Of a DNA stretch of 64,000 bases, positions 11,031 to 50,722 are shown piece after piece. How positions within the stretch are numbered: the first letter of the stretch is position 1; every line of letters begins with the position of its first letter. The DNA is from Psychrobacter arcticus 273-4 (GTDB taxonomy: Bacteria; Pseudomonadota; Gammaproteobacteria; Pseudomonadales; Moraxellaceae). The notes under the pieces were generated by a model. It did no database searches. It saw nothing but the letters and a program-made list of their open reading frames with translations, and was not told the origin of the DNA. Location of the stretch: NCBI RefSeq assembly GCF_000012305.1, contig NC_007204.1, forward strand, positions 806,001-870,000. Direction: 5' to 3'. The position numbers and the translations under genes were made by a program.

Positions 11031-11168
11031 TATAGTTGAAATACTTTAAAGTCGCTACCGTATTGCTGGTGTAAATTTTTTGCAGCCTCTGTCTGCGTAG
11101 GCACAGCAAGCAAGAAAAATTTGCACCAGTAGTACGTGTTGTATCGATATTACTTTTCACCGACTATA
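11031..11168. repeat. Palindromic TA-flanked repeat, subtype 1 (138 bp)
   Basis: Begins TATAGTTGAAATACTTTAAA and ends CACCGACTATA. Inner arms GCTGGTGTAAATTTTTT and GAAAAATTTGCACCAG pair around the core, which is read here on the complementary strand. It lies 41 bp after the der stop codon. Confidence 0.93.
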
Positions 11169-47727: not shown

Positions 47728-49368
47728 TTAGTCGGTACCAAATTGCTTACGCTTTTTAGCAAAGAAGCGGTCTAAGCGATCCATGGCGTCTTCTAAATCG
47801 TGTAAGTTGGGTAAAAATACCAAGCGGAAATGGTCATGTTTGTCCCAGTTAAACCCTGTTCCTTGTACCATCAATACGTTTTCTTCCAACAATAAATCCA
47901 TCATAAACTGCATATCATCTTTGATAGGGTAAATCTCAGGATCCATCTTTGGAAAGCAGTAAAACGCGCCTTGTGGCATGGTACAAGAAATACCTTTGAT
48001 CGCATTAAGGCGGGTCACTGCCAACTCGCGCTGCTTGTACAAGCGACCTTTTTTAGAAGTTAAGTCTTTCATGCTTTGATAGCCGCCCATGGCTGTCTGA
48101 ATCGCATATTGTCCTTGAACGTTAGAACATAGACGCATAGAGGCGAGCATATCCAAACCTTCGATAAAGTCAGCGGCGTGTTCTTTGCGACCTGAGATCA
48201 TCATCCAACCGGCACGAAAGCCTGCGATGCGATGCGATTTTGACAAACCATTATAGGACAACACCAGTACTTCATCGGTCAAGGTACTCATCGGCGTATG
48301 TTCCATATCGTCATAAAGAATACGGTCATAAATTTCATCGGCCATAATAATTAAATCATGCTCTTTTGCGACCTCGATAATTTGCAGCAGTACTTCATCA
48401 CTATAAAGTGCGCCTGTCGGATTATTGGGATTAATAACCACAATGCCTTTGGTTTTGCTAGTGATTTTAGATTTGATGTCTTCAATATCAGGATGCCAGT
48501 TGTCTTCTTCATTACAGCGATAATGTACCGCTGTACCGCCTGCTAGATTGGTAGCTGCTGTCCAAAGCGGGTAGTCTGGCATTGGAATCAATACTTCATC
48601 GCCATCATTCATCAGTGCCTGCAAGGTCATGACAATCAGCTCAGAGACGCCATTACCTAGGTAAACATCACGAACATCAACTGCCGATAGAAGCCCTTTT
48701 GATTGATAGTATTGCAATACCGCTTTACGCGCTGAAAAAATCCCTTGCGAGTCTGAATAGCCCGTCGCTTCCGGCAGATTCATCGCCACATCACGCAAAA
48801 TCTCATGCGGTGCTTCTAAACCAAAAGGAGCGGGATTGCCAATATTCAGCTTTAAAATACGTTTGCCTTCTGCTTCCATTTTATTGGCAGTTTGCAACAG
48901 AGGACCGCGAATGTCGTAGCAGACGTTTTGTAATTTATCGGATTTTTTTATTGTATTCATAAAGGGACCACTCATCAGGTTATTTGGTGAAATTTTGCGG
49001 GGAGTAGAGGGTATTGTCGTTGTGTGTGTGATTTGACTGGCACTATGAGCTTGCTCATCGGATTCGACATATACGTTGGTATTGTCTGACGCTATATTCT
49101 TTAAATCGACATCTGATTTGCTGTCACTTTCAAGCTCACCGCGCAATAAATATCCTTCGCTACAGCCTAAAATACGCGCGAGAGTAGGTAGCTTAGATGA
49201 GACAATCCCATTCGTCCCACGCTCCCAATTAGAGATGGCACCACGACTGACTTTAGCGCCAGCAGCAGTCATCGCTTGTGCCAACTGCTCTGCCGTCATT
49301 CCTTTGTCACGGCGCAGCTGTACCAGTCGTTCAGCTTGTGTGCTTTTAGTCTTGTCATCAGCCATCAT
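47728..49368 (-). CDS. alaA: Alanine transaminase (AlaA type) fused to an N-terminal XRE helix-turn-helix
   Basis: Residues about 141-546 match AlaA, a PLP enzyme that makes alanine from pyruvate and glutamate: LQNVCYDIRGPLLQ, LNIGNPAPFG, NPNNPTGALY, ADEIYDRILYD and the PLP lysine in SYNGLSKSHRIAGFRAGW. E. coli AlaA is about 405 residues, so the enzyme is complete. Residues 10-78 are an XRE/HTH_3 domain (ERLVQLRRDKGMTAEQLAQA, VSRGAISNWERG), joined by a linker of about 60 residues rich in Ser/Thr/Asp. The combination recalls the MocR idea (HTH plus aminotransferase) but with an XRE domain and an apparently active enzyme. A set of TGCAAG dyads lies 110-215 bp upstream and may be its operator. 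Confidence 0.92.
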   Translation of the reverse strand: MMADDKTKSTQAERLVQLRRDKGMTAEQLAQAMTAAGAKVSRGAISNWERGTNGIVSSKLPTLARILGCSEGYLLRGELESDSKSDVDLKNIASDNTNVYVESDEQAHSASQITHTTTIPSTPRKISPNNLMSGPFMNTIKKSDKLQNVCYDIRGPLLQTANKMEAEGKRILKLNIGNPAPFGLEAPHEILRDVAMNLPEATGYSDSQGIFSARKAVLQYYQSKGLLSAVDVRDVYLGNGVSELIVMTLQALMNDGDEVLIPMPDYPLWTAATNLAGGTAVHYRCNEEDNWHPDIEDIKSKITSKTKGIVVINPNNPTGALYSDEVLLQIIEVAKEHDLIIMADEIYDRILYDDMEHTPMSTLTDEVLVLSYNGLSKSHRIAGFRAGWMMISGRKEHAADFIEGLDMLASMRLCSNVQGQYAIQTAMGGYQSMKDLTSKKGRLYKQRELAVTRLNAIKGISCTMPQGAFYCFPKMDPEIYPIKDDMQFMMDLLLEENVLMVQGTGFNWDKHDHFRLVFLPNLHDLEDAMDRLDRFFAKKRKQFGTD

Positions 49369-49481
49369 TGTGTAAGCCTTTTTATTTTATAAATCCGTCA
49401 CTAATCAAATAACGAAACCAATTCTATAAGGTAAGTATTAAGCTAATGCTTTAAAAGAGAAATACTTTTAATTAATTCCTA

Positions 49482-49500
49482 ATGCAAGATATTATTGCAT
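49482..49500. promoter_or_regulatory. Candidate operator dyad 1 upstream of the HTH-AlaA gene
   Basis: ATGCAAGATATTATTGCAT, a 19-bp dyad (ATGCAA-7-TTGCAT). It shares its form with the centre of the large palindrome at 49530. A single ATGCAAG half-site also lies between them at 49512-49518. Confidence 0.6.
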
Positions 49501-49529
49501 GTAAAAACTAAATGCAAGTTTTTTATAGA

Positions 49530-49582
49530 TTACAGTGATTTCCACAATGCAAGATTATCTTGCATTGTGGAAATCACTGTAA
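49530..49582. promoter_or_regulatory. Perfect 25-bp inverted repeat with operator-like centre
   Basis: Bases 49530-49554 and 49558-49582 are exact reverse complements around TTA. The centre (49547-49565) is ATGCAAGATTATCTTGCAT, the same 19-bp form as dyad 1; centres are about 65 bp apart. It lies 160-215 bp upstream of the HTH-AlaA start. There is no T-run, so it is not a normal terminator. Confidence 0.65.
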
Positions 49583-49617: not shown

Positions 49618-49755
49618 TATAGTCGGTGAAAAGTAATATCGATACAACACGTATTGCTGGTGCAAATTTTTCTTGCTTGCTGTGCCTACGCAGACAGAGG
49701 CTGCAAAAAATTTACACCAGCAATACGGTAGCGACTTTAAAGTATTTCAACTATA
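49618..49755. repeat. Palindromic TA-flanked repeat, subtype 1 (138 bp)
   Basis: Reverse orientation; begins TATAGTCGGTGAAAAG and ends TTTCAACTATA. It lies between the alaA operator region and msrB, 36 bp from the large inverted repeat. Confidence 0.93.
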
Positions 49756-49958
49756 GCTTGTCATTTTTCGATATCAAATCGCCTATAGTATCTGGCACTG
49801 CCATTTGATACAGCAAGTATTCTTGTTATAAGCGTCTTGAATAATAAGATGCTCGCCAACAGATAAAGCTTATCGTTTTTATAAAAAATAGCGATAAGGC
49901 CTCGATAAACCATTACTCACGATAGAGTAGATAATCAGTCATTCCATAAGGATTCGTT

Positions 49959-50501: not shown

Positions 50502-50653
50502 TATAGTTGAAATACTTTAAAGTCTCTACAGTATTGCTGGTGTAAATTTTTTGCAGCCTCTGTCTGCGTAGGCACAGCAAGCAAGAAAAATTTGCACCAG
50601 TAGTACGTGTTGTATCGATATTACTTTTCACCGACTATTTTTCACCGACTATA
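50502..50653. repeat. Palindromic TA-flanked repeat, subtype 1, with duplicated right end
   Basis: Begins TATAGTTGAAATAC. The right end TTTTTCACCGACTAT is present twice in tandem (50627-50638 and 50639-50653), so this copy is longer than 138 bp. Confidence 0.9.
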
Positions 50654-50722
50654 GTATCTTACATAACACAGTGTCTAATGTTTGATAGCAATATAAATGA
50701 GTGACTAATTTAAGGATGAATA

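Follow-up and report, generated by a model that had tools for sequence, protein, structure and literature searches.

A gene in Psychrobacter arcticus 273-4 encodes an alanine transaminase, AlaA, that is fused at its N-terminus to an XRE-type helix-turn-helix (HTH) domain and that probably doubles as its own repressor, which would make the fused protein a self-repressing 'trigger enzyme'. The gene lies within a 64,000-nucleotide stretch of DNA, the whole of which is referred to here as the window. The features seen directly are the fusion itself, the active-site motifs that have been kept, dyads that are conserved together with the gene, and a promoter-like overlap at fixed spacing; from these we infer DNA binding, repression, and control by how much of the enzyme is present or what state it is in.

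The fusion open reading frame occupies 47728..49368 on the minus strand and specifies 546 amino acids. Residues 13-79 (49132..49332) form an XRE (Cro/C1-type) HTH, residues 81-137 (48958..49128) a variable linker, and residues 138-546 (47731..48957) the AlaA aminotransferase part. The HTH matches PF01381 over residues 17-74 with 27.2 bits (cut-off 23) and PF12844 over residues 13-79 with 30.1 bits, 0.1 bit short of the cut-off of 30.2; it is also related to phage repressor families (down to E 3.2e-13, phrog_4) and to the P22 C2 repressor 1adr (E 1.9e-4). The Escherichia coli AlaA structure 4cvq aligns over residues 130-537 with an E value of 3.9e-168, and the C-terminal part matches the aminotransferase family PF00155 with an E value of 1.3e-57. 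No NCBIfam equivalog reached its cut-off on the fused protein, the top model being NF006230 with 352.8 bits against 534. The lysine predicted to bind PLP, K377 (codon 48238..48240, minus strand), lies in a GLSK motif found in 144/144 family rows, and the other active-site motifs are kept in nearly all of the 144. The preliminary description of this DNA, which saw an HTH joined to an intact PLP enzyme with its active-site lysine, is thereby confirmed: the protein consists of an XRE HTH and a complete AlaA with conserved active-site motifs.

The fusion is present in all 68 Psychrobacter genomes that were compared (full-length matches in 60/60, and 8 further) and has no internal stops, so that in every one of them an enzyme and a predicted DNA-binding domain, the combination that characterizes trigger enzymes, are found in a single chain. 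Over the 68 rows the HTH shares 93% of its letters with the window protein and AlaA 91%, compared with only 19% for the linker, which implies that the HTH is under the same constraint as the enzyme; the rows within the genus are kin, and their counts are non-independent. A second AlaA was not seen in 60 genomes of the genus, the runner-up among the matches listed having 137 bits and 29% identity. With no second AlaA alongside, the fused protein must, to judge from gene content, serve as the cell's alanine transaminase. A methionine at the position of the old AlaA start (window 48958-48960) is found inside the fusion in 61/68 genus rows. An internal start producing an HTH-less form was considered and rejected; a Shine-Dalgarno-like word accompanies this methionine in just 3 rows, and the methionine is therefore probably a relic of the start of the unfused gene.

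Upstream of the fusion gene, the sequence ATGCAA-N7-TTGCAT occurs exactly at 49482-49500 and at 49547-49565, in agreement with the two 19-bp dyads of the preliminary description. The 17-bp cores of these sites are referred to here as the proximal dyad, TGCAATAATATCTTGCA (49483..49499, minus strand), and the distal dyad, TGCAAGATAATCTTGCA (49548..49564, minus strand). In the 2,650,701-base genome the exact 19-bp form is found in only these 2 places, both upstream of the fusion gene, and a further 8 places match with one mismatch. When up to two mismatches are allowed the window holds 15 matches against 10.15 expected, a number reached by 10/100 shuffles and not significant, and about 10 of the 15 fall in a dispersed repeat.

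A putative promoter overlaps the proximal dyad. Its -10 box, TAATAT (49489..49494, minus strand), lies within the dyad, 17 nt below a TTG-led hexamer, TTGCAT (49512..49517, minus strand), that may serve as the -35 box. The pair resembles the consensus poorly, and a generic promoter scan did not return TTGCAT-17-TAATAT; it gave 2 other candidates, against 2.6 expected from shuffles. In every one (65/65) of the genus rows whose sequence extends 60 nt or more beyond the proximal dyad, the top TTGACA-like hexamer at the allowed spacings of 16-19 stands exactly 17 nt ahead of the dyad's internal TAATAT or TAAAAT. It starts with TTG in all 65, and its last three letters vary (TTGCAT in 34, TTGCAA in 19, TTGAAA in 3, TTGTAT and TTGCAG in 2 each, and five others once each). 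The TTGCAT at 49512 had been noted previously as a half-site of the dyads; the hexamer is indeed there, and this constancy of the TTG and of the spacing makes a -35 box the better reading of it.

The proximal dyad is found in 67/68 genus rows, 65 of them with an exact copy and 2 with a single substitution. The sole row without it (L039, genome G051) comes from a contig that stops 161 nt upstream of the frame, and the loss is possibly due to an insertion or to the end of the assembly. In G051 a sequence unlike that of near relatives stands in the place of the promoter, just above alaA. A distal dyad no more than 120 nt away is present in 65/65 rows, with TGCAAG-N5-CTTGCA exact in 57 and one half changed in 8. 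The distal dyads comprise 24 different 17-mers, and their distance from the proximal dyad, measured start to start, takes 20 values from 44 to 82 nt; helical phasing between the two dyads was looked for and found to be absent across the 65 rows. A blind search for shared dyads, from which 3 of the 68 rows were dropped, returned TGCAA-N7 dyads in 62/65 rows, with a shuffle maximum of 5.

In the window, the distal dyad is centered in a perfect 53-bp inverted repeat (49530..49582) with arms of 26 nt (49530-49555 and 49557-49582) that are 100% complementary and 1 nt apart. The perfection of this repeat was described correctly at the outset, and conservation does not extend to it: of 323 loci searched for a 29-nt piece of it, 3 had the piece, and these 3 come from the genome of the window itself, so the perfect repeat is private to this genome and is kept at the locus in no other. 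In several species the arms of the distal dyads are palindromic beyond the dyad, with letters that differ from species to species. Six extra flanking pairs are present at the distal dyad in 9/63 rows, and re-dealt arms give at most 4; it is as if the hairpins had been perfected anew in each lineage.

XRE-headed AlaA proteins are also found in relatives of Psychrobacter, namely in genera g10 (probably Moraxella), g7, g8, g14 and g16. An alaA match was obtained in 20/22 g10 genomes; at the thresholds used there was none in G108, which is rated 99-100% complete, or in G549. The HTH is present on 19 of the 20 g10 genes, and an exact TGCAA-N7-TTGCA dyad lies upstream of 16 of these 19 and is missing from 3. 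The single HTH-less gene (G118) has no upstream dyad (0/1). The preliminary description had predicted dyads upstream of orthologues that bear the HTH and their absence where it is lacking, and both expectations hold in these counts, the second also in 18 upstream regions of extension-free alaA genes, among which no dyad was shared by more than 3 (shuffle maximum 2). Operator-like sites at the gene's own promoter that are conserved with the fusion (67/68 in the genus, 16/19 in g10) are a further feature expected of a trigger enzyme. In g10 a TTGCA-led hexamer precedes a TA-type hexamer by 16-18 nt in 17/20 rows, including the HTH-less one, a count made without a shuffle control, and in some rows the dyad adjoins the start codon. 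No exact dyad was found in g7, g8, g14 or g16, and a one-mismatch form is present in 3/6 g7 rows.

N-termini read in the family and in chosen members of the order, where 133/155 genomes had an alaA match, revealed four further types of N-terminal domain on AlaA, named MSQKKS, DPNFV, MYFV (MYFVNKK) and P22-Cro-like. The MSQKKS type occurs in g15 (probably Acinetobacter) and in g9 (Alkanindiges, from source names), the DPNFV type in g13, the MYFVNKK type in g11 and the P22-Cro-like type in family f25. No N-terminal domain was seen in six genera (g2-g6 and g12). Twenty further N-termini from the order, chosen because their open frames were long or looked suspicious, were judged by eye; in the class, 21/185 genomes had a match and three N-termini were read. 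Rows L125 (no anchor), L172 (no frame) and G111 (partial match) were left out, and 120 of 936 homologue hits were listed.

The f25 domain resembles P22 Cro (PF14549, with E values of 6e-7 and 6.7e-6, neither match reaching the curated cut-off); XRE domains and P22 Cro are both of the Cro/C1 type. Pfam yields nothing significant for the MSQKKS, DPNFV and MYFV domains, and it is for that reason that DNA binding by these three is something we infer. A search with the MSQKKS domain, limited to proteins of about 260-830 aa, returned 34 hits, all with PF00155. The structural model of an MSQKKS-type protein has a mean pLDDT of 52 and is poor beyond its N-terminal helices (5-11, 13-21, 26-37 and 44-54), for which pLDDT is 81, 81 and 75 over residues 11-40, 60 for residues 41-50 and 56 for residues 1-10; the predicted domain may be called HTH-like and no more. 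A fold search with this model gave only aminotransferases among the best 50 listed. A structure prediction for the MYFV type, made from 2 sequences, had a mean pLDDT of 34 and was unusable.

Several of these domains appear to be paired with sites of their own. Shared dyads, and direct repeats with a period of 9-12, were searched for blindly and compared with 40 doublet shuffles, the counts being inflated by kin rows. This search found AGCAA repeated at 11 nt in 13/14 MSQKKS rows (shuffle maximum 2), ATAGG-N6-CCTAT in 7/7 DPNFV rows (shuffle maximum 1) and GTCAA-N6-TTGAC in 2/4 P22-Cro-type rows (shuffle maximum 1), with no signal in the 4 MYFV rows. The g15 rows that lack the extension share other words, partly AT-rich, in 4/8 (shuffle maximum 2). 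Of the four other domains, two have clear upstream sites of their own, one has suggestive sites, and for one none was found.

The pattern AGCAAAAAGNAAGCA, derived from the first g15 and g9 loci, was put to the test on a set of 74 g15 genomes. Of these, 73 have an alaA match: 52 with the full extension, 20 with none, and 1 (G503) matching from residue 119 only. The pattern lies upstream of alaA in 44/52 genomes with the extension, 95-98 nt before the start, and in 0/20 without it; when 5 genomes that had already been seen are omitted, the counts are 43/50 and 0/17. The whole g15 set holds 49 matches, 44 of them at extended alaA genes, and the reversed pattern gives 1. The other five are in G491, G494, G503, G514 and G517; that of G503 lies 419 nt above the partial alaA match, and that of G514, which is extension-free, is on another contig. 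G491, although rated 99-100% complete, yielded no match to alaA under the thresholds applied and still carries one AGCAAAAAGNAAGCA site. In a scan of 12 genomes, the 8 with the extension have one match each and the 4 without it have none. For the DPNFV type, one match to TAGGGAATANCCTA, beside alaA by coordinates, was found in 6/9 genomes, the alaA-bearing ones being those already seen; of the remaining three, one carries the pattern with a single base changed and two gave no match to alaA. The reversed pattern gave 2 matches.

Enzymes of the AlaA type are twofold-symmetric dimers, and each dimer of the fused protein would accordingly present two XRE domains to fit the two halves of TGCAAG-N5-CTTGCA. 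One bound dyad would cover the -10 box of the enzyme's own promoter and the second would sit 44-82 nt upstream, protein on the dyads would exclude RNA polymerase, and binding would depend on the enzyme's abundance or state (PLP, substrate). Autorepression is preferred as the outcome because the dyad that is kept best overlies the -10 box. The preliminary description had proposed that the transaminase binds these sites and represses or activates its own gene in response to PLP, pyruvate, alanine or glutamate; the comparison of relatives supports the proposal of self-regulation, with repression as the direction that the placement of the sites favors and with these four compounds as candidate effectors. 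The same protein might instead activate its gene, or do both, with the distal dyad activating and the proximal dyad shutting the promoter off. Activators often sit upstream of the -35 box, as the distal dyad does in 65/65 rows with at least 60 nt upstream, but its distance is variable and follows no helical phase, the best conserved dyad overlies the -10 box, and in part of g10 the dyad is next to the start codon, all of which make activation unlikely.

The dyads could also belong to a different regulator, for instance one acting on the divergent msrB-like neighbor, in which case the HTH of AlaA would have another target or none. An msrB-like motif is present in 63/68 genus rows, so the spacer is commonly shared. 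The dyads, however, are located at the promoter of alaA, and the start of the neighbor (49959) is hundreds of bases away; in g7 the msrB motif is upstream in 0/6 rows, yet 3/6 have the one-mismatch dyad. In g15, moreover, a divergent start was seen by eye in 18/18 upstream stretches, with and without the extension, whereas the repeats track the extension alone. A separate regulator is accordingly quite improbable. Least credible of all, and very improbable, is that the inverted repeat is a hairpin, a terminator or the relic of a mobile repeat in which the protein has no part. The perfect 26-nt arms favor such an origin, as does a dispersed repeat that starts about 36 bp from the inverted repeat; no terminator-like site was found there in a generic scan, and it is the 17-bp dyads, not the long repeat, that are conserved in other genomes. 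The dispersed repeat (core AAGCAAGAAAAATTTGCAC) flanks the msrB-like gene on both sides, at 49618-49756 and, inverted, at about 50505-50655, and is present in about 10 places in the window, with further copies near 11108, 13862, 20324, 23257, 28557, 30412, 41674 and 58036.

In a quick tree built from 115 AlaA domains, on which gain and loss are not separable, a single change suffices for each of the DPNFV, MYFV and P22-Cro groups (starred branch), and XRE needs 3 and MSQKKS 5; the data do not reject a single origin for XRE (p-AU 0.54). Taken plainly, five different domains point to five or more capture or swap events, together with several losses in g15, and relatives appear, from sequence association, to have arrived at a similar arrangement with different N-terminal domains and sites. 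It is slightly more likely than not that AlaA is an evolutionary hot spot for self-regulation, with at least five N-terminal domains within one order, most of them with new promoter sites, and with the sites missing where the domain is missing. If this is true, the alanine node is a natural replicate experiment on enzymes becoming their own repressors. One housekeeping enzyme seems to have become a trigger enzyme several times with different parts, and the domain-site pairs, being defined by sequence, lend themselves to testing and bear on the bacterial control of alanine supply. If g15 is Acinetobacter, most of the species examined (52/73 with an alaA match) have an extension that belongs to no Pfam family.

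Among known systems, NadR likewise has an XRE-type HTH. The P22 C2 and Cro/C1 repressors share with the fusion a similar HTH and short symmetric dyad sites, the partner domain here being a metabolic enzyme, and E. coli AlaA (4cvq) is alike over the entire enzyme part and lacks the head, the match starting at query residue 130. PutA, BirA and NadR are described as metabolic enzymes with an added DNA-binding domain that control their own pathways, and PutA as a repressor that binds just the region between its own divergently transcribed genes (PMC8249747, PMC6978683); the present case differs from them in that the enzyme is the AlaA transaminase, the HTH and sites are others, and the sole target seen is the enzyme's own gene. 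By one count E. coli K-12 has five trigger enzymes (PMC8249747). MocR proteins, including GabR, have a comparable layout, in which a GntR-type winged-helix head precedes an aminotransferase domain of fold type I (PMC4944035, PMC5320631), and some of them are stated to lack significant catalytic activity (PMC4944035). The fusion is distinct from them, as the preliminary description had also held: its head is XRE and not GntR (no GntR family among its Pfam matches at E <= 0.001, where HTH_3 and HTH_19 were found), the housekeeping transaminase motifs are kept, and there is no second AlaA. It may be a PLP enzyme that senses outside the MocR family. No report of a DNA-binding AlaA was found among the titles and abstract starts of the open-licence PubMed Central articles listed.

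With regard to a wider regulon, a scan of 40 Psychrobacter genomes gave no other recurring AT-centered dyad among the matches listed, and the pattern read backwards gave 5 matches in the 40. The exact dyad 17-mer was also considered as a diagnostic for the fusion and rejected: it occurs in at least 116 stretches in contigs, and an HTH motif lies no more than 700 nt downstream in 12 of them and not in 104, so that the 17-mer alone is not diagnostic. Eight sites from the scan were inspected, of which 6 lie in stop-bounded frames of at least 237 codons and 2, at L173 near 1480 and at L174 near 1553, are seemingly non-coding. These two have one identical 17-mer, TGCAATTGTGTCTTGCA, which had no Rfam family match; it recurs in many genomes of the genus and seems to be non-coding, the longest open frame through it being 37 codons.
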